A stretch of DNA of 64,000 nt from Ideonella paludis (GTDB taxonomy: Bacteria > Pseudomonadota > Gammaproteobacteria > Burkholderiales > Burkholderiaceae_C), in NCBI RefSeq assembly GCF_018069865.1, contig NZ_JAGQDG010000003.1:1-64000 (forward strand), in the 5' to 3' direction. Position 1 is the first letter of the stretch. Every line of letters starts with the position of its first letter. Under the pieces are notes generated by a model. It worked only from the letters and a program-made list of their open reading frames with translations, was not told the origin of the DNA and made no database searches. A program made the translations under genes and the position numbers. This document shows, in pieces, positions 4,961 through 40,041 of the stretch.

Positions 4961-5000
4961 AGGGATTGCCCCCTCCTCGGGGCACGGTATGCTGCCACAT

Positions 5001-6029
5001 ATGCGATTCGATGAACTGATGTCCTTCGTCTATGGACAGGGGGGGCAGGCTTTGGGCGAACACCAGCCCACTCACGCCGCCCGAGACGAAAAAATTGTGC
5101 GCGCCGCCATGGCCGCACTGCGCCAACAACTGGCCAGCCACGCGGGCGGGCCCACCGAGGTGCCGGGCCTGGGCCGCTTCAAGCCCCGGCCCACGCCGCC
5201 CGACGCCCCGGCGGATGCGCCGCTGCGCTGGATTTTTGAGCCCGAGGCGGCCGACCATGCGGCCAAGGCTTGGCGCAAAGCCCTGCGCACCGTAGAGCGG
5301 CCGCTGATCCACCCCGAGCGCAAATTTGTTGTGCTGTTCTCGGCCAAGTCGGCGTGCTCCACCGTGGTGATCTGGTTCTTGCACACCCTGGGCCTGGCCG
5401 CGCAGGCGCGGGAGTTTTCAGAGTGGCCGCACCACTACCGCATCAACAAATACTATGCCCGCGAAGATTACTTGCAGGCGCGTGAAGAGCTGGGCCCAGA
5501 CGACGTGACCCTGCTGCGCGTGGTGCGCGACCCGGTGGACCGCGCGGGCTCCAGCTTTCGCCATGCACTGGGCCTGAGCTATGCGCGCGACACCATCCGC
5601 GAGAAGCTCGGCATCGACACCGATGTGGACGGCTTGTCCTTCGAGCGCTTTATCGACTTTTTGGAGATGGAAGACCTGGACCGCTGCGACCCGCACCACA
5701 AGCGCCAGCGCCACCTGATTGAAGACCTGAAGCGGCCGGACTTCATCATCAATGCAAGCCGGAAAGATCTCTTCACAGAGCTGAATCATTTCGAGCGCAT
5801 GATGGGCATGCCTGAGACCGACTTCAAGGCGCTGTCCTGGGTGCATGAGCTACAAGCCACCCGTGTGCCGCACAGCGTGGCGCATGGCGGCGACTCCTAC
5901 CGCGCGGTGCTCACCCGCGAGCACGCCCAAAAAGGCCCCTGGCCCAAAGATTTGATCACCCCAGAAGCGCGTGCCCGCCTGGAGCGGCTCTACGCACAAG
6001 ACATTGCCAGCTACGCAGTAACACCATGA
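5001..6029 (+). CDS. Sulfotransferase with an HU-like N-terminal region
   Basis: This is a 342-aa protein. The C-terminal two thirds resemble Sulfotransfer_2-type enzymes: a 5'-phosphosulfate loop FSAKSACSTVVIWFLHTLG near residue 115 and a 3'-phosphate block LRVVRDPVDRAGSSF near residue 170. The first 95 residues look different. They contain VPGLGRFKPRP followed by LRWIFEPE, which mirrors VPSLGRFHARR and LRRVLFLTPK in the HU-like protein encoded immediately downstream. Start ATG 5001 is chosen; ATG 4989 is possible. The stop overlaps the next start as ATGA. It opens a five-gene unit running to about 10.4 kb. The acceptor is unknown. Confidence 0.7.
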   Translation: MRFDELMSFVYGQGGQALGEHQPTHAARDEKIVRAAMAALRQQLASHAGGPTEVPGLGRFKPRPTPPDAPADAPLRWIFEPEAADHAAKAWRKALRTVERPLIHPERKFVVLFSAKSACSTVVIWFLHTLGLAAQAREFSEWPHHYRINKYYAREDYLQAREELGPDDVTLLRVVRDPVDRAGSSFRHALGLSYARDTIREKLGIDTDVDGLSFERFIDFLEMEDLDRCDPHHKRQRHLIEDLKRPDFIINASRKDLFTELNHFERMMGMPETDFKALSWVHELQATRVPHSVAHGGDSYRAVLTREHAQKGPWPKDLITPEARARLERLYAQDIASYAVTP

Positions 6030-6595
6030 ACAACAACAACCCCCTCGACAACCACAAGCCCGGCGTCGCCAAAGCCACCTGGACGCCCGTAGACCTGGCT
6101 CAAGCCGTGGTTCAGGCGCACCCTGAGTGGGTCGGCCAGCCCTTGGATGCCCGTTTGCTGGGCCAAGCTCTGCGCGAAGCCTTCGGCATGCTGCGCGAAC
6201 AGGTGGACGCGGTGGATGTGGGCACGGTGGCCGTGCCCTCGCTGGGCCGCTTCCATGCGCGCCGCGCCCCCAACAAGCCCGACCTGCGCCGCGTGCTGTT
6301 TTTGACGCCCAAGGGCAATGAGACTGCCGCGAGCGCGGCGCCGGCAGCAGCGCCGGCGGCTACCCCCGTGGCTGAGCGTGTGGAAGTGCCGCTGGCTGTG
6401 CTGGCGGCCCAGCCTGCCGCCGAGCCTGAAGCAGCCCCGGCCGCTGAGCCCGTGCCGGCTGCGGCCGAGGCCGCCCCTGAGCCTGTGGCGGCAGAGCCCG
6501 AGGCTGCGGCCCCCGCACCGGCCGAGCCCGTGCCCGCCAAGACCTCCGCCAAGCCCAGCAGCAAAACTGCCAGCAAGAGCAAGCGCAAGCGATAA
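6026..6595 (+). CDS. HU-like DNA-binding protein with Ala/Pro-rich, Lys-rich tail
   Basis: This is a 189-aa protein. Residues 15-95 resemble an HU/IHF fold: two helices, then DVGTVAVPSLGRFHARRAPNK and RRVLFLTPKGNE, in the position of the HU beta-arm (canonical GFGTF and RNP motifs are only partly kept). Residues 100-170 are low complexity in Ala, Pro and Glu, and the last 18 residues are Lys/Ser-rich, like histone-type tails. The start ATG overlaps the stop of the preceding gene by four bases. A nucleoid-type protein between two sulfotransferase genes is unexpected. Confidence 0.65.
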   Translation: MNNNNPLDNHKPGVAKATWTPVDLAQAVVQAHPEWVGQPLDARLLGQALREAFGMLREQVDAVDVGTVAVPSLGRFHARRAPNKPDLRRVLFLTPKGNETAASAAPAAAPAATPVAERVEVPLAVLAAQPAAEPEAAPAAEPVPAAAEAAPEPVAAEPEAAAPAPAEPVPAKTSAKPSSKTASKSKRKR

Positions 6596-6604
6596 GGACA
6601 CCGC

Positions 6605-7597
6605 GTGGCACAGGTTTTTCTTCATGTCGGGCTGAACAAGACGGGCACCTCGTCGCTGCAAGACTTCATGGCCATGAACGCGGCGCTGCTGCTGGAGCGC
6701 GAGGGCGTGCTCTACCCCAGCGCGGGCCGCGTGGGCGCCGCCCACCATGGTGTGACCGAGCGGCTCAAAGGCAAGGCACCTGCCGGCCAGCCTGATGTCT
6801 TGCAGGCCTTGGCCGAGGAAATCCGCCACGCGGACAAGGTGGTCATCACCTCCGAGAGCCTGCATGGCATTGGCCCCAAGCCCCTGGCCTTGCTGGCCGA
6901 GACGCTGAAGGGCCACGAGGTGCAGGTGGTGTTCTACCTGCGCGAGCATGTGGCGTACCTCGCCAGTTGGTATCAACAGAATGTGCAGGCCTCGCAGTCG
7001 TCGATGGGCTTCGAGACCTTCTGCCACTACAACCACAAGCCCTTGCACAAAGTGGTGCAGCCCTGGGCGCAGCAGTTTGGGGCGGGCCAGGTCACGGTGC
7101 GGCTCTATGACCGCGAGGTGCTGGCTGGTGGCGACATCGTGCAAGACTTTGCGCAGGTCTTGGGCCTGAAGATCCCGCTCGCCGAGTGCCGCCGCAAAGG
7201 CTGGGAAAGCAACCCCAGCGTCTCGGGCAACCTGCTGTTCATCAAACGCTTGCTCAACAATTTCTACCGCCGTGAACAGGCCGCCAAGGTGGTGGACGAG
7301 TTGACCGAGCTGTCCAAGCTCAAGCCCAGCTTCAGAGGCCGCATGCAGGTGCCCGCGCACGTGGTGGCCAACTTGGTGAAAGGCTATGCCCAAGACCGCC
7401 AAGTGCTGGCCAGCCAGTGGGGCGTGCAGATCGCCCCGCTCAGCAGCGCGCTGGAAGGCCACTTAACGCCAGACCTCAGCACCTTGAAGCAAGACTGGGA
7501 GATGGTGATGGACGCAGCGGCCGCCAAAGGCATGGTCTTGGCCCGCGCTGCGCAAGCCTTGCGCTTGGGCGACGATTTGTCGGTGTTCAATGACTGA
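6605..7597 (+). CDS. P-loop sulfotransferase-like protein
   Basis: This is a 330-aa protein starting at GTG 6605, preceded by AAGGA at a normal distance. The N-terminus VFLHVGLNKTGTSSLQDFM is a sulfotransferase-type PAPS-binding loop, with Lys-Thr-Gly-Thr-Ser-Ser in place of a Walker A. VVFYLREHVAYLASWYQQNV near residue 115 corresponds to the 3'-phosphate-binding strand and helix. Proteins of this type occur in exopolysaccharide and capsule clusters. It follows the HU-like gene after nine bases and overlaps the DUF1800 gene by eight bases, so all belong to one probable operon. Confidence 0.75.
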   Translation: MAQVFLHVGLNKTGTSSLQDFMAMNAALLLEREGVLYPSAGRVGAAHHGVTERLKGKAPAGQPDVLQALAEEIRHADKVVITSESLHGIGPKPLALLAETLKGHEVQVVFYLREHVAYLASWYQQNVQASQSSMGFETFCHYNHKPLHKVVQPWAQQFGAGQVTVRLYDREVLAGGDIVQDFAQVLGLKIPLAECRRKGWESNPSVSGNLLFIKRLLNNFYRREQAAKVVDELTELSKLKPSFRGRMQVPAHVVANLVKGYAQDRQVLASQWGVQIAPLSSALEGHLTPDLSTLKQDWEMVMDAAAAKGMVLARAAQALRLGDDLSVFND

Positions 7598-9143
7598 TCG
7601 CTTGCGCTTCAGCCCAGGCCGCCGCGCCCTGTGCGCCGCACTGCCCAGCCTGTGGCTGGGTGGCCGGGCCTTGGCCCAAAGCCGTCTTCATTTGCCCAGC
7701 CCGCTGCTGCGCGCACGCTGGCTGGCGCGGCTGAGTTGGGGGCCGACGGCCGGCAGTGTGCAAGCGCTGGAGTCACTCGGCCCCGCCGCATGGCTGGCGC
7801 GAGAGTTAGCCCCCGCACCCTGGCCCCCGGCGCTGCCCAGCAGCTTGCCCGAGCGCACGCTGGCGCTGGGCACACCCGCGATGGCGGCGCTGCTGCAAAG
7901 CACCACCGCCCAGCAGCGCCTGGCCAACCAGCAATCCGACCCCGACGAAAAGAACAAGCAGAACCGCGCCTTTCAAGACCGCCTGACGGCCGAGAGTCGT
8001 CACGCGCAGTTTGAGCTGATTTGGCAAGGCTTGTATGGCGAGCGCCAGGTGCAGCAGCAGATGGGCTGGTTCTGGTTCAACCACTTCAGCGTCCACCGCT
8101 TCAAAAACCAGTTGCGGCCCATGATGGCCGACTACTCGCAGCAGTTGACCGCGCTGGCGCTGGGCCGCTTCAGAGACCTGCTGGGCTTTGCCGTCAAGCA
8201 CCCGGCCATGCTGCTCTACCTGGACAACCAGGCCAACGCTGTGGGCCGCATCAACGAGAACCTGGCGCGCGAGCTGCTGGAGCTGCACACCTTGGGTGTG
8301 GACGGCGGCTACACCCAGGCCGATGTGCAGGCCATGGCGCGGGTGCTGACGGGCTTTGGCGTGAACATGACGGGCGAGGTGCCCAAGCTCAAGCCCGAGC
8401 ATCAAGCTACGTATGCGCTGGATGGGCTGATGGAGTTCCACCCCGCGCGGCACGATGCTTCGCCGCAAACCTTGTTGGGCAAAGAGCTGCCGGGCAGTGG
8501 CCGGGAGCGCCTGGAGTGGGTGCTCGACCACCTGGCCGCTCACCCCGAGACCGCCCGCCATCTCTGCCAGCGCTTGGCGGTGTATTGGGTGGGCGACAAG
8601 CCTTCGCCGGCCTTGGTCGAGCGCCTGGTGCGCCGCTACATGCTGAGCCGTGGCCTGATCGCCGAGGTGATGCAGGAGCTGCTGGCCTCGGACGAGTTGA
8701 TTGCCAGCTTGGGCCAGCAGTTCAAGACGCCGCAGCAGTGGGTGATGTCGGCCATGCGCCTGCTGTACGAGGACGTGCCCATCATCAACCCCATGCCCGT
8801 GCTGCGCTGGATGGAACGCTTGGGCCAACAGCCCTTTGACCGCCAAACCCCGGACGGCTACCCGCTGGAGGGCAGCGCCTGGGAGGCGCCTGGCCAGATG
8901 GTGACGCGCTTTGAGCTGGCGCGGGTGTTGGCCGCGCCGCAGGCCAATTTGTTCCGGCCCGAGGGCAGCCCGGCCGACCCCGCCGCGCCGCGCCCGCCCG
9001 CCCCCCGCTGGCCCCACGACACGGTGCGCGAGCTGTGGCTGCCCGCAGCCTCCGAGGCCACGCGCCAAGCGGTGCTGAGCGCGGCCAACCCGCGCGATGC
9101 TGCTGCGCTGTGGCTGTCTTCGCCTGAATTCATGATGCGCTGA
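7590..9143 (+). CDS. DUF1800 family exported protein
   Basis: This is a 517-aa protein with an N-terminal export signal: basic start, hydrophobic stretch, ALAQ near residue 30. The body carries DUF1800 hallmarks: WFWFNHFSVHRFK, HPAMLLYLDNQANAVGRINENLARELLELHTLGVDGGYTQ (split here at residues 205-245), and VQAMARVLTGFGVN. Function is unknown in the family, but its gene is almost always paired with DUF1501, as here, one base apart. Its start overlaps the preceding sulfotransferase gene by eight bases, which indicates co-translation with that gene. Confidence 0.88.
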   Translation: MTDRLRFSPGRRALCAALPSLWLGGRALAQSRLHLPSPLLRARWLARLSWGPTAGSVQALESLGPAAWLARELAPAPWPPALPSSLPERTLALGTPAMAALLQSTTAQQRLANQQSDPDEKNKQNRAFQDRLTAESRHAQFELIWQGLYGERQVQQQMGWFWFNHFSVHRFKNQLRPMMADYSQQLTALALGRFRDLLGFAVKHPAMLLYLDNQANAVGRINENLARELLELHTLGVDGGYTQADVQAMARVLTGFGVNMTGEVPKLKPEHQATYALDGLMEFHPARHDASPQTLLGKELPGSGRERLEWVLDHLAAHPETARHLCQRLAVYWVGDKPSPALVERLVRRYMLSRGLIAEVMQELLASDELIASLGQQFKTPQQWVMSAMRLLYEDVPIINPMPVLRWMERLGQQPFDRQTPDGYPLEGSAWEAPGQMVTRFELARVLAAPQANLFRPEGSPADPAAPRPPAPRWPHDTVRELWLPAASEATRQAVLSAANPRDAAALWLSSPEFMMR

Positions 9144-31732: not shown

Positions 31733-32650
31733 ATGATCTCGATGCAAGGTGTGCCGTCGGTTCTTATCGCCAAGAACCAATCCTGGGTCCGCAAACAGGC
31801 TCAGGCGTTGGTGCGCCATCTGCCTGCCAACGTAGAGCGTGCGGACCTGATTCAAGTGGGCCTGATCGCCGTGGCGCAGGCCGCGGTCAGCTTCGAATGG
31901 GAAGGGGACCGAGAGTCCGAAGAGGCGCAAGAAGCCTTTGTGCGCTATGCCCGTATGCGTGTCAAAGGCGCCATGCTCGATGAGCTGCGCCACATGGACT
32001 ATTTGACGCGCGGCGAGCGCCGCAAGATCAAGGTCTTGCAGATCGCCCGCGAACGCTATCGCTCCGAGCATGGCCGCGACCCCAGCCCCAACCAGTTGGC
32101 GGGCCTGACGGGCATGCCCTCTGAAGAAATCAGCTCGCTGCTGCAGGCCGACCAGTTAGGGCGCTATCAGCAAAGCGTCGATGACGAGGAAGACGAGCAA
32201 GCGCATCGCTTCCATCCCGCCACGCCGCAAGAAGAGGTGGAGGCCCGCGTGGACACCGCCATCGTGATGCGGCGCTTGGAAGCCTTCTTCGCCGAGCTGC
32301 CCGAGCGCGAGCGCATGGTCATCGACGCCTATCTGGGCGTGGGTCTGAGCCCGGTGGAAGTGGCACGCTCTTTGAACGTGACGCCGTCGCGCGTCTCGCA
32401 GATCTACCACTCGGTTGTCAAGCGCGTGGCCGCCCACTTTGGCAATGGCCCAGCCGCCCAACCCGGCCGCGCCACCGACCGCCTGCGTGGTGCCGAGCTG
32501 ACCGACCTGATGCGCGCCCGCGAAGACGAGCTCAAACGCACCGGCCAAGGCGCTTGGGGCGAGATGATGGAACAAGTGCTGCGCAACACCCGCCGCCAGC
32601 ACGCCGACCCCGACCATCTCGAAGTCACCGACACCACCAGGTGGGGCTGA
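31733..32650 (+). CDS. FliA/WhiG-type RNA polymerase sigma factor
   Basis: This is a 305-aa sigma-70 family protein. Region 2 is seen in ADLIQVGLIAVAQAAVSFE and RYARMRVKGAMLDELRHMDY, a FliA hallmark. Region 3 covers about residues 100-150. Region 4 has the helix-turn-helix LSPVEVARSLNVTPSRVSQI. About 60 residues follow region 4 (Ala/Arg-rich), longer than typical FliA at about 240 aa. No flagellar or chemotaxis genes are in the window, so control of flagellin genes is assumed from the family only. Start ATG 31733 is chosen over an upstream ATG without family similarity. Confidence 0.82.
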   Translation: MISMQGVPSVLIAKNQSWVRKQAQALVRHLPANVERADLIQVGLIAVAQAAVSFEWEGDRESEEAQEAFVRYARMRVKGAMLDELRHMDYLTRGERRKIKVLQIARERYRSEHGRDPSPNQLAGLTGMPSEEISSLLQADQLGRYQQSVDDEEDEQAHRFHPATPQEEVEARVDTAIVMRRLEAFFAELPERERMVIDAYLGVGLSPVEVARSLNVTPSRVSQIYHSVVKRVAAHFGNGPAAQPGRATDRLRGAELTDLMRAREDELKRTGQGAWGEMMEQVLRNTRRQHADPDHLEVTDTTRWG

Positions 32651-32813
32651 GGCCGGACGTGAGCCTCTGCCTGCGCAGAGGCGAACGCCTGCCGAAGCGG
32701 ACCGGCATGCAAAGCCGGGCCGTGGGGCACACGCCAGGCCGGACGTGAGCTTCTGCCTGCGCAGAGGCGAACGCCTGCCGAAGCGGACCGGCATGCAAAG
32801 CCGGGCCGTGGGG
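32651..32813. repeat. Tandem 77-bp two-hairpin repeat, 86-bp period
   Basis: Copies at 32651-32727 and 32737-32813 differ at one base. Each holds a hairpin GCCTCTGC-CTGC-GCAGAGGC (32663-32682; second copy 32749-32768) and a second stem pairing GGACCGGC with GCCGGGCC (one mismatch) around ATGCAAA. The one difference, C to T in the first stem, keeps a G-U pair. Copy one begins directly after the sigma factor stop. It looks like a REP-type extragenic element. Confidence 0.85.
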
Positions 32814-32836: not shown

Positions 32837-34048
32837 ATGCACATGCCATCAATCCTCTGGGCGGCACTGGCCGCCGCCGGCCTTTTGGCCGCACCCAGCC
32901 TGCGCGCCCAAGGCGCGGACGAGTTTCAAACCTGCTTGAAGACGCTGAAGGACGACGCGCGCCGCGCGGGTGTCTCTGCGGCGGGCTATGACAAATTCAC
33001 CGACGGCCTGCAGGCCGACCTCTCGGTGGTCAAGCTGCTGGATGACCAGCCCGAGTTCAAAACCCCGATTTGGGACTACCTCGCCGCCTTGGTGGACGAG
33101 CAGCGCGTGGCCGATGGCCGGGCGCTGCTGAACCAGCACAAAGAGGTGCTGGACAAAGTCGCTCAGCGCTTTGGCGTGGACGCCGCCACCGTGGTGGCCG
33201 TCTGGGGCGTGGAGAGCGACTATGGCCGCTCCTTTGGCAAGCGCCCCTTGCTGCAATCCTTGGGCACCTTGGGCTGCTTTGGGCGGCGCCAGGCTTACTT
33301 CCGGGGTGAATGGTTTGCCTTGATGCGCTTGATCGACCAGGGCGATTTGCGCATTGATGGCCCCCAAGGCGCAGCCGGCTTGGTGGGCTCTTGGGCTGGG
33401 GCTTTTGGCCACACCCAGTTCATGCCCAGCACCTATCAGCGCTTGGCGGTGGACTTTGACGCGGATGGCCGGCGCGATCTGGTGGCCAGCATCCCGGATG
33501 CCTTGGCCTCTACTGCCAACTTCTTGGACAAAGCCGGTTGGCGCACCGGCGAGCCTTGGGGCTTTGAGGTCAAGCTGCCCGAAGGCTTGGACACCAAGGG
33601 CCAAGGCCGCAAAGCTAAAAAGCCTCTGGCCGAGTGGGCGCAGGCCGGCGTGAAGCGGGTGGACGGCAAGCCCTTGGGCGAGGGCGGCCCGGCCGGGCTG
33701 CTGCTGCCTGCCGGCCCCAAAGGCCCAGCCTTTTTGGTGTTCCGCAACTTTGACGCCATCTATGGCTACAACGCCGCCGAGAGCTATGCCTTGGCCATTG
33801 CCCACTTGGCCGACCGCCTGCGCGGCGGCAGCCCCTTTGCTACGGCCTGGCCCACCGACGACGCCGGCTTGAGCCGTGCCGAGCGCCGTGAGCTGCAAAC
33901 CCTGTTGGCCGCCAAGGGCCATGCCATTGGCGAGATCGACGGCATGCTGGGCGCGGCCACCCGCGCCGCCATCAAGGCTGAGCAGCAGCGCTTAGGCTTT
34001 GCCGCCGATGGCCGCGCCGGCCAAAAGCTGCTCAAGGCTTTGCGTTGA
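32837..34048 (+). CDS. MltB-type lytic murein transglycosylase
   Basis: This 403-aa exported enzyme cleaves peptidoglycan glycan strands to form 1,6-anhydro ends. A signal peptide ends at LRAQ near residue 25. The catalytic Glu is in AVWGVESDYGRSFGKRPLL, and GAFGHTQFMPSTYQRLAVDF and FNFDAIYGYN-like FRNFDAIYGYNAAESYALAI follow as in MltB/SLT_2. The last 65 residues form a peptidoglycan-binding domain (LLAAKGHAIGEIDGMLGAAT). It converges with the patatin gene, overlapping its end by 17 bases. Confidence 0.92.
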   Translation: MHMPSILWAALAAAGLLAAPSLRAQGADEFQTCLKTLKDDARRAGVSAAGYDKFTDGLQADLSVVKLLDDQPEFKTPIWDYLAALVDEQRVADGRALLNQHKEVLDKVAQRFGVDAATVVAVWGVESDYGRSFGKRPLLQSLGTLGCFGRRQAYFRGEWFALMRLIDQGDLRIDGPQGAAGLVGSWAGAFGHTQFMPSTYQRLAVDFDADGRRDLVASIPDALASTANFLDKAGWRTGEPWGFEVKLPEGLDTKGQGRKAKKPLAEWAQAGVKRVDGKPLGEGGPAGLLLPAGPKGPAFLVFRNFDAIYGYNAAESYALAIAHLADRLRGGSPFATAWPTDDAGLSRAERRELQTLLAAKGHAIGEIDGMLGAATRAAIKAEQQRLGFAADGRAGQKLLKALR

Positions 34049-36112: not shown

Positions 36113-36476
36113 CGCGGTGGCGGCGTGAGCCGACACCGACAGGTGCTTCAGGCCCCTCAATGGGGCTTGAAGTGCCCGCGTGATCTGTTCGCGTGTTGGA
36201 GCGGGCTGGTGCTTTGCGAGCCCTGTCGCGGGGCAGTCCCCTGGGCTCATGGAGAGGCGGTCGGCTCAAGCCGACTGCCTTGCGGTGCTCGGGCTGGACT
36301 GGGCGCTGCAGAACTCGCTGCACTCACTGCGTTCGTTACGCTCAACCATCTGCTGCGAGTCAGAGATTGATGCGCGCTGCGCGCGCCCCAGCCCAGCCCT
36401 GCGCTCCTCAGCGCCTCTCAAATCGCCCTGGGGACTACCCCGCGCCAGGGCGGGTGGAGCGGTGGCGCGGCGCTGC
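36113..36476. other. Non-coding stretch holding hairpins and element A
   Basis: I see no gene here. A hairpin at 36146-36172 pairs CTTCA and GCCCC with GGGGC and TGAAG. The rest is mostly repeat element A, listed separately. Confidence 0.6.
36230..36441 (-). repeat. Structured element A (212 bp) with terminal inverted repeats
   Basis: The ends GGGGCAGTCCCCTGGGC (36230-36246) and GCCCTGGGGACTACCCC (36425-36441) are inverted repeats matching at 15 of 17 positions. Read on the minus strand, it aligns along its length with element B at 39704-39917, sharing for example GGGCGATTT, GCGCAGGGC, CTGACTCGC, GCCGACCGCC and CATGAGCCC. An internal hairpin GTCGGCT-TG-AGCCGAC is present. It flanks the small-gene island on its left side. 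Confidence 0.7.
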
Positions 36477-36806
36477 CTATTCGCCAATCGCGGCCCGCTG
36501 CTGCTTCAGCAGCGGGAGCACAGCATGAAAGTTGCGAATCAAGTCTTGCTCTGACATGACTTGAAAGGGGAAGCGAACTTGGTAGACCCCCCAGCGCCCC
36601 GGCGAGGGCGTCGAGATGGTTTCAATGTCTGGCCCACTAACCTCCCACGAGATCCCTGCCTGCCTTCCGTCGGGGTCGACGACAAACAGATCACCTGACA
36701 ACTTCGGCCACGGGCCGGGCCGTGGGATACCGATGTACCCCAGCATCCAGCCTTCTGACTCCGATGCGGCGATGAGCTTACTGTTGTCGTAAGGGGCGTC
36801 GTCCAT
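36477..36806 (-). CDS. Small protein of unknown function, cassette island
   Basis: This 109-aa soluble protein starts at ATG 36806 behind GGAG. It has a Trp-Met-Leu-Gly-Tyr-Ile-Gly core followed by a Pro/Gly-rich turn and LSGDLFVVDPDG, then GVYQVRFPFQVMSEQDLIRN. I do not recognise the family. It has no signal peptide or membrane segment. It is the promoter-distal gene of a row of seven minus-strand small genes with lower GC than the surrounding chromosome, and its stop lies 36 bases from element A. Confidence 0.6.
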   Translation of the reverse strand: MDDAPYDNSKLIAASESEGWMLGYIGIPRPGPWPKLSGDLFVVDPDGRQAGISWEVSGPDIETISTPSPGRWGVYQVRFPFQVMSEQDLIRNFHAVLPLLKQQRAAIGE

Positions 36807-36913
36807 GATTGACTCCAATGCCTGACGCCGCACCCCGCTCACACTTGAACCAGACGTGATGGGGGCTTGTCGTCACGGGCATCGCTTCAGACGAGAGTTG
36901 GTTCATCGTTGTC

Positions 36914-37363
36914 TCAAATGCACCGCATCTCGATGACGATGCTCGGGAGGTTGCTCTGAGCTTCCTCGCGCCGTGCTGCTAGCGCTGCCTGGCCCGGTAT
37001 CCGTTTGATGGCCCAGACCGACAAGTAGCGGGCAACCAGAACGACGGCAGCGGCGAGGAAGTTCTGGCGTATGGCGAACACGAAGGCGAGGCCAAGAGAC
37101 GCTAGCGTGACGATGAGCGGGGCTCGATCCAGCCAACGCTCACGGCATGTACTCGCTACTTCGATGGCCTGGGTGACGACCTCGTCCGGGATGTCGGTGC
37201 GATACGCCACCAAAGCATAACTGCCGGGACGGATGACGGCATCCGAACGAATGAGCCTGTTTGGCTTGAAATTTTGATGGGCCGATTCGACCCCGCCAAA
37301 TGCGATGCGACCCGCGGTAGAAAACCTGCCGACCAGTTTGTCTTCTACAACACAGAAACGCAT
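36914..37363 (-). CDS. Small membrane protein of unknown function, cassette island
   Basis: This is a 149-aa protein starting at ATG 37363. An in-frame TTG at 37390 sits directly after the stop of the upstream small gene, so a 158-aa form is possible. The N-terminal half is soluble (CVVEDKLVGRF; RPGSYALVAYRTDIPDEVVT). Two adjacent hydrophobic segments, APLIVTLASLGLAFVFAI and NFLAAAVVLVARYLSVWAI, at about residues 82-120 are probable membrane helices. A basic C-terminus follows. No family was recognised. Confidence 0.6.
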   Translation of the reverse strand: MRFCVVEDKLVGRFSTAGRIAFGGVESAHQNFKPNRLIRSDAVIRPGSYALVAYRTDIPDEVVTQAIEVASTCRERWLDRAPLIVTLASLGLAFVFAIRQNFLAAAVVLVARYLSVWAIKRIPGQAALAARREEAQSNLPSIVIEMRCI

Positions 37364-37390
37364 GATTTGCGCAGGTGGCGGCTCGTCCAA

Positions 37391-37567
37391 TTACAGATGC
37401 AACAAGTAGCCACCATCGCCATCCGTCGGCAATCGGATCAGATGCTCCCTTGCGACAAGCGCATCGAGCCCTTCGCTGTCTAGCGAGCCGGAGGGTGGGA
37501 GAGACTCGACGTCAAATAGTGCCATCTCTGCAACGTCGGTTCCGGCAGGTAGGCGGTGGAGAGCCAT
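37391..37567 (-). CDS. 58-residue protein, cassette island
   Basis: This short open frame runs from ATG 37567 to TAA 37391. AAGGTG lies nine bases before the start, a good ribosome binding site. The acidic protein begins MALHRLPAGTDVAEMALF and ends DGDGGYLLHL. It has a charged helix (DSEGLDALVAREHLIRL) and no cysteine, signal or membrane segment. It lies between two other minus-strand small genes with normal spacing, and its stop abuts a TTG that could start the next gene. Function unknown. Confidence 0.6.
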   Translation of the reverse strand: MALHRLPAGTDVAEMALFDVESLPPSGSLDSEGLDALVAREHLIRLPTDGDGGYLLHL

Positions 37568-37644
37568 GAGTGACTACACCTTAGTTCAAGCGACCAAGCC
37601 AGCGACGCTGGCTCGAGGGCTGCAGAGCGGGGTTCGGCGGCACA

Positions 37645-38022
37645 TCATGGCACGGGGCCTTTGCCGTGAAATGCCTCATGGAATTGTCTGAGTCGCTTTG
37701 GCGTTACCTCCCAGTATGGTCGCGCCTTAACGCAGGCAACCTGCCAAAAGAGATTCTCCATAAAGCTGACATCCAAACAGTCGCGCAGTTCCGACGACCC
37801 ACTAGCGAGCGCCTCGTCCAGAAACTTCAATAGCGCCTTGTAGTCGGCCGGATCGACTTCAGCAGCCATTTCGAGATTGATAGCGTTCGCCAGGCTCTCG
37901 AACCAAACGAAGGCGCCGCCTGCCTCTGGAGGGCCCCACCGCCGAATGTGCAACCCATCTGCCGTTTGGCTGATGAGAGGGAATCGCTCTCGAACGGAGT
38001 TGTACAACTCAGGCAAAGTCAT
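37645..38022 (-). CDS. DUF7674-like small protein, cassette island
   Basis: This 125-aa soluble protein starts at ATG 38022, which overlaps the previous gene's stop as ATGA, so both are translated together. It runs MTLPELYNSVRERFP, then VWFESLANAINLEMAAEVD, then LDEALASGSSELRDCLDVSF and MENLFWQV. This helix order recalls small proteins of the DUF7674/immunity type that protect against polymorphic toxins, but the match is from memory. A longer frame upstream is non-homologous and overlaps the neighbour. Confidence 0.6.
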   Translation of the reverse strand: MTLPELYNSVRERFPLISQTADGLHIRRWGPPEAGGAFVWFESLANAINLEMAAEVDPADYKALLKFLDEALASGSSELRDCLDVSFMENLFWQVACVKARPYWEVTPKRLRQFHEAFHGKGPVP

Positions 38023-38501
38023 CTTGTGCTGCTGACCGTTGAAGTTGAGCCGACGCGAGTCGGCTTGAGGGTTTGGCTTGAGCGCAATTGCCGCCACCGT
38101 TCCAGTGATAACGCCCATTGAGCGTACCGCCTGACGTGTGGCTTCGCACTCCCAGCACATTTGGCGCATACAGCATGAGTCCTCATTGCATCAATTTGCA
38201 GCGCCAAGCGAAGTTGATCCTTGAATTGCTCCGAAAAGGTTCCAGCGGCAAGACGTTCCGTGATGCAGCCTACAAGCGCCTCACGATGGGTCCGCCCAAG
38301 CTCGCAGTGCTTAAGGCGACGGCACATCATTGCCCTTGCTCGGCCGTGCCAAAGCCCTTGGGTTTCCGCCAATATGAACTCCACACATCGCTCCACGATC
38401 CAAGGCTCGGGCGCAAGCAATCCATCCGCCATGGCATGGAGATCAAGCTTTGAAAGGGCGGCGAAGTCCGTGTGAGCTGACGGGAGCTGCGGATTTCGCA
38501 T
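38019..38501 (-). CDS. Helical protein of unknown function, cassette island
   Basis: This is a 160-aa protein from ATG 38501, without a strong ribosome binding site. It is largely helical: FAALSKLDLHAMADGLL, EFILAETQGLW, REALVGCITERLAAGTFSEQ, with a CAKCAG motif near residue 118. The last residues (SQTLKPTRVGSTSTVSSTR) are encoded by a palindromic stretch that resembles an attC site, which is usual when a cassette gene reads into its recombination site. It is translationally coupled to the DUF7674-like gene. Function unknown. Confidence 0.55.
   Translation of the reverse strand: MRNPQLPSAHTDFAALSKLDLHAMADGLLAPEPWIVERCVEFILAETQGLWHGRARAMMCRRLKHCELGRTHREALVGCITERLAAGTFSEQFKDQLRLALQIDAMRTHAVCAKCAGSAKPHVRRYAQWALSLERWRQLRSSQTLKPTRVGSTSTVSSTR
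38031..38077 (-). other. Degenerate attC-like site (candidate)
   Basis: On the minus strand it reads GCCAAAC, five bases, AGCCGAC, four bases, GTCGGCT, then CAACTTCAAC and GGTCAGC. The L-type boxes (38048-38054 and 38059-38065) are perfectly complementary. The outer R boxes no longer match each other, so it may be inactive. Confidence 0.4.
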
Positions 38502-38553
38502 AGGCGCTTTGATGTTTGAGTTCAATTGACCCAGGTTAGCGGAGTTGGCGCGG

Positions 38554-38577
38554 GTCGGCTGCCGCGAAGGGTTGAGC
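38554..38577 (-). other. Half attC-like site (candidate)
   Basis: On the minus strand GCTCAAC (38577-38571), ten bases, then AGCCGAC (38560-38554) repeats the R-spacer-L layout of the intact attC at 39044-39100. It begins one base after a cassette gene stop codon. The partner half is not recognisable. Confidence 0.4.
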
Positions 38578-38578
38578 C

Positions 38579-39040
38579 TCAGCGCCCTGGACATGCTGCG
38601 GTGTACTCTGGATTCGGGCCAACCCGCTCAGCCAGCTTGCCACACAGCAAACGGTGCTTTGGAGAGCAGGCCCGGAGCCGAATGAGCAAGCGGCATGCGC
38701 TGTTCACGCCGTTCACCGAGGTTTCCTCTGGGTTGTAGAACACGCCCTGCAGGACCCATTTCAGGTAGTCGGGATCTTGCTCCGCCAAGCCTGCCAGTCT
38801 CTCAACTCCACGCTGATCTTGTAGTAGCAACTGAGTATGAATGGAGCTGATCGCCTCAGCCAGTGCGCCATCTGAACAGTGTCCGCGGTACTCCTTGAAA
38901 TAAGAGTGGGACGCCTCCCAATTGCTGAATCGCTTGTGCCAAAGCTCGCGCTCTGCGGCGGCGCAGTCCTGGGCTGCTGCAGGAGCAGCCAATCCCAGCC
39001 CAAGCCACAGTAGTGCAATCGATAGAAGAATCTTGCGCAT
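38579..39040 (-). CDS. Secreted small protein, cassette island
   Basis: This 153-aa protein starts at ATG 39040 with a Sec signal peptide (MRKILLSIALLWLGLGLAAP, cleavage after AAAQ near residue 24). The mature part is helical with five cysteines, in ECAAAERELWHKRF-like QDCAAAERELWHKRFSNWE, RGHCSDGALAEAI, SACRLLIRLRACS and LLCGKL, so disulfides are likely in the periplasm. The family was not recognised. The start codon lies four bases from the intact attC site, typical of a cassette gene placed just after the recombination point. Confidence 0.65.
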   Translation of the reverse strand: MRKILLSIALLWLGLGLAAPAAAQDCAAAERELWHKRFSNWEASHSYFKEYRGHCSDGALAEAISSIHTQLLLQDQRGVERLAGLAEQDPDYLKWVLQGVFYNPEETSVNGVNSACRLLIRLRACSPKHRLLCGKLAERVGPNPEYTAACPGR

Positions 39041-39043
39041 GAT

Positions 39044-39100
39044 GCCCAACGGTCAAATTCAGCGGGCGGCTGCTGCGTCCGCTGCAATGCAGGGTTGGGC
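39044..39100 (-). other. attC recombination site of an integron cassette
   Basis: This 57-bp site has perfect outer boxes GCCCAAC (39044-39050) and GTTGGGC (39094-39100), fitting RYYYAAC/GTTRRRY. Read on the minus strand, R''-10 bases-AGCGGAC-9 bases-GCCCGCT-10 bases-R' has the spacing of class 1 and chromosomal attC sites. The gene on its upstream side reads into it, ending QPCIAADAAAAR, a typical cassette tail. Confidence 0.8.
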
Positions 39101-39382
39101 AGAAACGATTAACACCGACGATCCCGTTCCTGCCACCGACGATATTGCTTGATGAATCTGCTTGAGCGAACCTTCCGCAATTAGGGCTTCAGGGGAGGGT
39201 TGATTTCCGTGACCCGGATCGTGATACGCCATGAACTCACCCTCGACATCGCGCATAGCGAGAAATGACGTAGCAACGATGCCTTCTCCGCATTGAGCGC
39301 ATCGCAGTACATACGATCCGTACTCAACGATCGCCTCGCTCTGCTTTGAATCACACTCCGAGCAGGTTGCTGAATCGCTCAT
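39059..39382 (-). CDS. Zinc-ribbon-like small protein, cassette island
   Basis: This is a 107-aa protein from ATG 39382. Two CxxC pairs, CSECDSK near residue 7 and CAQCGEG near residue 29, separated by YGSYVLR, suggest a small zinc ribbon. A segment FLAMRDVEGEFMAYHDPGHG follows. The C-terminal dozen residues are encoded by the attC site. The frame is open for another 48 codons upstream, so a longer 155-aa form starting at 39526 cannot be excluded. Function unknown. Confidence 0.6.
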   Translation of the reverse strand: MSDSATCSECDSKQSEAIVEYGSYVLRCAQCGEGIVATSFLAMRDVEGEFMAYHDPGHGNQPSPEALIAEGSLKQIHQAISSVAGTGSSVLIVSAQPCIAADAAAAR

Positions 39383-40041
39383 TTCTCTGATGCACAACCG
39401 GGATTCTGGGCGATAGAGCTGCTGAGTAACAACAAAGCCTGTCCACGCAATGCCATGGGAATCGCAGTCAAAAAAGCCTGCCGTGGCAAAAGCTTGCAGC
39501 TTGTCCGATGTCCTTCCATTCAGCATATTCGGCCGTCAAAAGCGGCACCCTCCCTTGAAGACATTTTGTCTGCGAGTTCTGCCTGCAGCAAGCCTCGCTT
39601 GCACGAACTGATCACTGACAGACACGGCCTGTTTGGACGCAATGCCCGAGGCACAAAGGAGCGATTCGCCGCAGGCCGATGACGCCGGAATTGCGTTGGC
39701 GCAGGCCATAGCCCGGGGCGATTTCTGAGGCGCCGAGGCGCGCAGGGCAAGGGCGTGGCGCGTGTACTCACGCGCTTCAAGAACTGACTCGCCGTCATTG
39801 TTTGACCACAGCGAGCCAAAGGCGAGCGGAGGGAGTTTGACGGCGCACGCGCTTGACCGAGTACCGAGGGAAGTCGGCCTTGGCCGACCGCCGATGCATG
39901 AGCCCCGGGCTATGGCCTGTGGCAGCGCATGCTCAACCGTTGCAAGCCCAGCAACTGCAGCATGCCAAGACACCGCAGCAAGCCAAGAAACCGCCGATCA
40001 AGCGCCAAGCTCAACGCACGCAGGCACGCCAAGCAAACAAG
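39383..40041. other. Non-coding stretch with element B
   Basis: From 39383 to 39526 the frame of the zinc-ribbon gene stays open but looks non-conserved. From 39527 to 39703 I see nothing. Element B occupies 39704-39917. From 39918 to the FAD gene stop I see nothing convincing. Confidence 0.55.
39704..39917 (+). repeat. Structured element B (214 bp) with perfect terminal inverted repeats
   Basis: GGCCATAGCCCGGGGC (39704-39719) is exactly complementary to GCCCCGGGCTATGGCC (39902-39917). Inside are hairpins GCGCGTG-TACT-CACGCGC and GTCGGCC-TT-GGCCGAC. It is a diverged homologue of element A in the opposite orientation and almost the same length. It lies on the right side of the cassette island. 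Confidence 0.75.

Follow-up and report, generated by a model that had tools for sequence, protein, structure and literature searches.

Two inverted, self-folding repeats bracket an integron cassette array in Ideonella paludis

We analyzed a 64,000-nucleotide stretch of the Ideonella paludis genome (contig NZ_JAGQDG010000003.1, positions 1 to 64,000; the window), which carries an island of small genes flanked by two inverted, structured repeats, here termed arms A and B. Coordinates for the features of this bracket, and for related loci in the same genome (G000), are collected in Table 1. The two arms are homologous in opposite orientation, as an earlier note on this sequence had described, with a mean column identity of 81% (278 columns, flanks included). 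That note located the pair correctly, but its outer coordinates, 36230 and 39917, fall short by 10 and 12 nt; its sizes of 212 and 214 bp hold for the inner part of each arm, whereas the whole arms with their terminal stems measure 232 and 238 nt. The terminal repeats differ in sequence between A and B and are self-complementary within each arm, at 20 of 22 positions in both cases. The internal hairpin also changes on both sides, from GTCGGCT/AGCCGAC in arm A to GTCGGCC/GGCCGAC in arm B. Both features were as the note had read them.

The open reading frames (ORFs) of the island are small and lie on one strand, and their third-position GC content is 0.53–0.73, compared with about 0.82 in the host flanks. 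Sites of the attC type were sought with a covariance model built from 16 sites at intI-bearing loci, which supersedes our first simple attC scans. The best site in the window, at 39044–39100, scores 40.9 bits on the gene strand (E 1.3e-7 over 175,519 bases, E 3e-9 over 4,001 bases) and only 13.2 bits when read on the + strand. A second and weaker site, at 38031–38083, scores 16.5 bits (E 0.19 and 0.0044 over the same two search spaces). The ORFs that follow start 3 and 8 nt beyond the two sites (at 39040 and 38022), as expected for cassettes. The larger search space comprises 20 sources, one of which (L094; L numbers denote the compared loci) lies inside another (L258), and the model returns seven matches at E ≤ 1 in it, each of them either enclosed by a bracket or next to an unpaired B arm, on its inner side. 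With one strong and one weak site on the gene strand, the island has attC sites following cassette ORFs in a single direction, as in an integron. No intI lies in the bracket, so the island also qualifies as a cluster of attC sites lacking an integron integrase (CALIN), for which the threshold is two attC sites. What the note called a small-gene island is an array of integron cassettes.

A platform with an attI-like site at its inner end adjoins arm B. The same conserved stretch ending in an attI1-like site, here called a type I platform, is present at the window locus (W), L072, L258, L089, and L090. Four other loci (L068, L093, L069, and L096) carry a type II platform, which shows homology to the interval that precedes intI. 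All four match that interval at L112 in the same-genus sister species G004 (C2:1289k; best E 4e-31), and all except L069 match that at L110 in the I. paludis genome (C17:201k; best E 7e-28). From this homology we conclude that the brackets hold an integron platform without its integrase. A tblastn search of the brackets for intI gave nothing convincing, the sole matches being a pair of short, weak pieces in L090 (E 0.25), and no functional intI was found beside the attI-like site. Elsewhere in G000 no intI match exceeds the cut-off, each piece being either truncated or split over two frames. The intI match in G004 lacks model positions 182–269; uninterrupted intI genes occur in six same-genus relatives that have at most partial arm matches. 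Taken together, the attI1-like core in the window, the platform homology in other brackets, and the crossover coincidence at L072/L258 make it very probable, at the level of sequence likeness, that the island is a set of cassettes beside an attI-type site.

Table 1. Positions of the bracket features in the window and of related loci in the I. paludis genome
Feature	Location	Strand	Remarks
Arm A, self-folding repeat, ~232 nt	36220..36451	+	Terminal stem of A type; outer end at 36220, inner end at 36451
Cassette-like ORF nearest arm A, 109 aa	36477..36806	-	No Pfam match; model recovers no attC behind it
Cassette-like ORF, 149 aa	36914..37363	-	No Pfam match; model recovers no attC behind it
Cassette 4 ORF	37645..38022	-	DUF7674 domain (E 7.7e-15); ATG 8 nt past second attC
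Cassette 3 ORF frame, 191 aa as listed	38019..38594	-	No Pfam match; 3' end overlaps second attC
Second, weaker attC	38031..38083	-	Found by covariance model
Cassette 2 ORF, 153 aa	38579..39040	-	No Pfam match; ATG 3 nt past end of first attC
attC of cassette 1	39044..39100	-	R'' GCCCAAC, R' GTTGGGC; top strand is gene strand
Cassette 1 ORF, 107 aa	39059..39382	-	No Pfam match; ATG 13 nt past GTT
Platform region adjoining arm B	39396..39640	-	attI-like site at inner end
GTT crossover of attI-like site	39396-39398 (AAC on +)	-	Assigned by likeness; crossover itself seen at related islands L072/L258
attI1-like core GTTACTCAGCAG	39419-39430	-	One mismatch to what we take to be the 12-nt attI1 core, on which the likeness rests
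Arm B, self-folding repeat, ~238 nt	39692..39929	-	Inverted relative to A; B-type terminal stem
Arm pairs of G000	C16 (window); C20:259504/262007; C11:805818/807580; C17:232668/233921; C19:344896/346573		
Truncated or frameshifted intI (L109-L111)	G000 C18:86214-87157; C17:201385-201870; C18:181200-181571		Each with its own attC array; no arms nearby
Armless platforms	L268, G000:C21:6144; L269, G000:C11:696009; L270, G000:C11:852198		attC matches in L268 and L270, none in L269

Further copies of the arms, which the earlier note had proposed to look for, are numerous. Searches with A and B, followed by a profile over the fetched regions, identify 15 arms in the I. paludis genome, comprising five pairs, all in + then - order, and five single arms. 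Ten of 60 genomes (I. paludis included) have an arm match, partial in seven, and many arms are present in G004 and in Methylibium sp. NZG (G020). A pattern scan of genome contigs gave at least 118 stretches, from which 80 loci were taken and eight dropped as armless by profile; the 72 arm-bearing loci, a lower bound, are mostly from Burkholderiales among the matches listed (Rubrivivax, Rhodoferax, Variovorax, Xenophilus, Pseudacidovorax, Albitalea, Methylibium, Ideonella, Rhizobacter, and others). The same matches include 24 complete two-arm units without cargo, 508–792 bp long, counting only + then - pairs with nearly full arms. Two kinds of arm can be told apart by their stem loops, X arms with a TCATG-like/GATTT loop and Y arms with a CTTCGG/GCGCCT loop, and by this loose letter rule 16 of the empty units have one X and one Y arm, one has two Y arms, and seven include an untyped arm. 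The arm unit is thus more general than a cassette flank, since these 24 units at other loci are empty. Arms A and B are the two inverted ends of one repeat unit. Related units occur across many Burkholderiales and are frequently empty, at the sampled loci in most cases. At Ideonella loci with two or more arm matches (n = 11), an A end and a B end occur together in ten, although the A arm of L090 is a 68-nt remnant and the scaffold of L092 is doubtful; in L096 there are just two B pieces. No match to arm A or to one whole unit was found in a plasmid collection (blastn, distant setting), and viral contigs scanned with the arm pattern gave 0 stretches.

The arms look MITE-like (miniature inverted-repeat transposable element), as the earlier note suggested, being non-coding, inverted, multi-copy, dispersed, and intergenic. 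Among 37 units the flanking genes are divergent in 2, convergent in 13, tandem in 19, and undetermined in 3; the window was counted as tandem, yet its Pfam-matched neighbors, DUF481 (+) and a FAD-dependent protein (-), are convergent. Units often lie about 20–50 bp from a gene end and rarely between divergent genes (2 of 34 determined). The centers of units L188, L162, and L176 hold other small repeats that are also found at unrelated loci, among them GGCTTC runs in L162 and 26–27-bp repeats in L176.

All five paired units in the I. paludis genome enclose small genes with lower third-position GC, and the positional link between elements and small-gene islands that the note had drawn from the window holds at each of them. 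Gene direction runs from B to A in all eight units that read clearly one way (W, L068, L070, L072, L089, L090, L091, and L071), as judged from a Pfam-matched gene or attC in seven and from ORF length alone in L071. Direction is mixed in L093, and both L091 and L093 were read from part of their ORFs. The cargo of other islands includes GFA, DUF2971, NTP_transf_2, DUF2750, ParE, and EthD proteins, together with a RelE-like protein just below the cut-off that has a helix-turn-helix (HTH) partner. L092 (G004:C5:133500-145000) was left out of the direction count. Around positions 5000–8500 its six-frame text contains unresolved residues and the repeated peptides VSYTHLDVYKRQ and LSLIHI, which we take to be adapter-like; the scaffold, from a metagenome-assembled genome, is therefore probably chimeric there, and its bracket was not judged.

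Across 60 arms, drawn from the 24 empty units and from six units of Ideonella, the two stems of one arm, outer and inner, match at a mean of 20.87 of 22 positions, and at 19 or more in 55 arms. Outer and inner stems taken from different units match at only 14.79 of 22 (19 or more in 6 of 180), and stems taken from the partner arm of the same unit at 14.38 (19 or more in 0 of 60). A chance origin of the arm pair is excluded by this excess over both cross controls together with the 15 arms in the genome. For 30 of the 60 arms (alignment A3), RNAalifold gives a branched fold with 74 consensus pairs, 62 of which show double changes. In A3 93.2% of cells pair, compared with 67.5% after shuffling and 37–45% when the partner is slid by one to three columns. 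With 526 double-changed cells in 30 sequences, against 152 in shuffles, the arm family is a strong example of structure retained without sequence. Helix 3 is nearly invariant, in part by construction because the locus-fetching pattern includes the GTCGGC hairpin. The ends of A3 were picked by complementarity and the structure was derived from A3 itself; the stem-match comparisons with their cross controls serve as the independent test. The note's argument from compensatory change to selection on a folded form is supported by these data, and none of the outcomes that it had named as refuting occurred: further copies exist, they covary, and the paired units of this genome are linked to islands. 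We read the covariation as selection on a folded form, with DNA a likelier candidate than RNA. GTT is not enriched beside the stem ends, where it would hint at attC or attG (outer ends 15 of 60 against 22 of 60 in the control; inner ends 12 against 11). An AAC no more than 12 nt from the inner end of the stem, which is GTT on the arm strand after the arm, shows a mild excess (15 of 60 arms against 6 of 60 in the control), and both arm flanks are G/T-rich on the arm strand in the 60 arms.

We compared orthologous sites to follow the content of the bracket. L072 and its ortholog L258 in G004 share about 89% identity where their blocks match. Toward arm B the agreement extends through CCAGATCACGGTT, beyond which the cassettes differ; the BLAST block starts at AAC (L072:3575), and agreement breaks at the GTT crossover of attI. 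The ortholog of the window in the sister species, L089, has the same flanks and the same B arm but different genes inside, one for a nucleotidyltransferase and a RelE-like/HTH pair, together with a second A arm. Compared with window arm A, the inner of the two L089 A arms is 92% identical and the outer 80%. The content of the bracket therefore changes while the bracket is kept. Cassette exchange inside the bracket is well supported, and the best-documented change, as read from sequence comparison, is of bracket content at attI/attC-type sites. The attC and attI-like sites between the arms and this turnover are new here and were absent from the earlier note.

These observations are probably best explained by a structured, non-autonomous unit of MITE-like character in the window that carries an integron without an integrase. 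Read from arm B, such a unit would consist of the arm, an integron platform (an attI-like site and no intI, corresponding to the interval normally found between intI and the first cassette), a decaying cassette array, and arm A, with the integrase-less integron occupying the unit center in the Ideonella lineage. Cassettes would have been exchanged by an integron integrase acting in trans while one was intact; in this genome it is now probably dead. The unit itself would have spread as a MITE-like element whose ends are recognized by fold rather than sequence with the aid of a helper protein. Fold conservation, copy number, and dispersal tip the balance modestly toward the bracket being a mobile carrier, and the repeat pair may move or shelter cassettes. 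A bolder version, which we offer tentatively, is that the arms are the ends of an undescribed mobile DNA family, recognized by three-dimensional fold in the manner of attC and moved by a helper, with an integrase-less attI platform as its Ideonella cargo. If so, a cassette docking station would sit within a second, structure-specific mobile element.

Several results weigh against a mobile, cassette-loaded unit. The earlier note had proposed a role for the repeats in moving the island, and this is the part of its reading that our comparisons do not establish. Mean direct-repeat scores at 33 units give no sign of target-site duplication (6.03 against 5.96 ± 0.19 for shuffled partners), although duplications of 2–5 bp could escape. 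The orthologous site of the window in the sister species retains the bracket. A search for sites lacking the island found none that was clean at nucleotide resolution among those compared; the sister-species site of L071 was rejected as an empty site, being a deletion scar with part of the outer B stem. Presence and absence of a unit between genomes was seen at two loosely alignable sites only (L151/L189 versus L188, and L139 versus L121), and L160 versus L187 was rejected as a further case because L160 is armless by profile. No helper was found, the only family tested being the Y1 transposase PF01797 and no systematic transposase search having been made beside the arms. Y1 occurs in 9 of 13 genomes and does not track the arms: it is absent from the arm-rich G004 and present in G001, G005, G006, and G013, which gave no arm match. 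The Y1 enzyme of the REP-associated tyrosine transposase type (RAYT; REP, repetitive extragenic palindromic) was accordingly rejected as the helper. The integron side of the reading has gaps as well. Only two attC sites in the window pass the model for about six ORFs, so the remaining sites are degenerate or absent, and the array is decaying. Across 38 loci from other genera (288,409 bases) the attC model gives three matches at E ≤ 2, and loaded cases outside Ideonella are weak: the best match, behind the gene of the loaded Methylibium unit L172, has E 0.79, while L170 has none at E ≤ 2 and L097 none at E ≤ 5. Nine unit centers from other genera give no match to any attI interval. Among the five paired own-genome units, attI homology is present in three, attC in three, and either in four; L071 has neither. 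None of 11 intI loci has an arm nearby at E ≤ 0.1; at E ≤ 1 the three own-genome intI loci yield only weak arm pieces, in L109 (0.34) and L111 (0.51). G000 also holds integrase-less attI-type platforms without arms (L268, L269, and L270). These platforms and the 11 armless intI loci imply that arms are not needed for platform dispersal.

Part of this evidence fits a static bracket. The arms would then be ancient and immobile, serving as structured insulators or as 3'-end elements resembling REP sequences and bacterial interspersed mosaic elements (BIME); platforms would have settled nearby by chance, and only cassettes would move. Units at the same places in two species (W, L072, and on one side L070), the lack of target duplication, and flanking genes that are seldom divergent (2 of 37) are all in keeping with it. 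We nevertheless regard a static bracket as a possibility of limited weight, given that all five paired own-genome units enclose foreign small genes, that A and B arms hold strict roles relative to gene direction, and that arms 94% identical occur at unrelated sites of the genome.

The pairing of the stems could also be maintained by templated copying, through hairpin-primed repair or rolling-hairpin replication with parvovirus-like ends, rather than by pairwise selection. Such copying would account for the near absence of one-sided departures in A3, where the standard pairs that differ from the commonest comprise 526 double-change cells and seven one-side changes, and for the agreement in type (A or B) of inner and outer stems in all 28 Ideonella arms for which both ends are present. 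The asymmetric unpaired stem loops TCATG/GATTT and CTTCGG/GCGCCT are conserved across genera, where copying would have erased them, and the short inner helices of the arms covary too; templated copying is unlikely on these grounds. Less likely again is that each arm is a structured RNA transcribed outward from the center, so that the inverted pair would represent either two genes or one gene plus a copy of it. An RNA would suit the extensive covariation and the unpaired stretches that are conserved along with it, and wobble-type cells do favor the inner-to-outer strand, by 55 to 15 in A3 (bootstrap 0.69–0.86) and by 66 to 13 in the terminal stems of the 60 arms, but strand-biased mutation would yield the same asymmetry. 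Wobble cells are moreover rare (70 of 2205), which is unusual for RNA, and an RNA gene would not be expected to occur in strictly inverted pairs. Rfam gave no match in the window region up to E 1, and in five other unit-bearing loci a single sub-threshold asX3 match outside the unit. An ordinary CALIN, an old array that lost intI and received repeats on either side by chance, has in its favor that any attC array without intI falls under that term, and has parallels in the unbracketed integrase-less platforms of the same genome, but is improbable given the regular A/B bracketing, the fixed gene direction at many loci, and the conserved inner flanks.

Away from the bracket, a tandem repeat (period 86, 1.9 copies, 98% match) at 32650–32813 of the window lies immediately upstream of an ORF at 32837.

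The loaded unit has partial counterparts among known systems. A 439-bp MITE in Acinetobacter, in the available account (PMC3934969), has identical, AT-rich copies in the same direction with 5-bp direct repeats that enclose intI1, and PMC5444012 cites the integron mobilization unit of Poirel 2009. As these sources outline them, such MITE-flanked class 1 integrons resemble the Ideonella bracket in having a non-coding repeat on either side of an integron and a supposed mobilization with a helper in trans. Here too two copies of one element flank an integron, which may have moved as a unit; the sister-species site of L071 is a deletion scar, and the 33 units scored show no target duplication. The Ideonella arms differ from the Acinetobacter element, as described in PMC3934969, in being inverted, GC-rich, and non-identical, without target repeats or an enclosed intI, and the arm unit also exists empty, as two arms, in other genera. 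A MITE hallmark, terminal inverted repeats whose constant sequence recurs in an autonomous element, was not found: the stem sequence differs between A and B and between genera, and the match lists contain no further own-genome element with these ends. Relative to the Acinetobacter MITE-flanked integrons, the Ideonella bracket is at most a distant variant. Like a CALIN as outlined in PMC8618304 it has attC cassettes without intI, but it retains an attI-type site and is bracketed by two folded arms. With chromosomal integrons it shares an attI-type site, attC cassettes, and foreign small genes (RelE-like, ParE, GFA, DUF2750, and DUF7674 across islands); it differs in having no integrase gene in the unit. 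BIME and REPIN elements, as presented in PMC2817692, are likewise inverted palindromic pairs, intergenic and in many copies, whereas the Ideonella arms are about 230 nt long and multi-branched, and no associated RAYT (Y1) transposase tracks with them. The conserved fold and free stem sequence recall attC sites, again within what PMC8618304 sets out; the arms are several times larger and lack conserved AAC/GTT boxes at the stem ends. At title and abstract level, and mainly outside subscription journals, we found no earlier description of the folded arm unit.

According to the account in PMC8618304, the mobile class 1 integrons are believed to derive from a Burkholderiales chromosome. The bracket bears on how sedentary chromosomal integrons became mobile and on how cassette clusters come to lie away from an integrase. 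With empty and loaded forms in Burkholderiales, an attI-type site without integrase, and cassette change at that site, it offers a testable intermediate.

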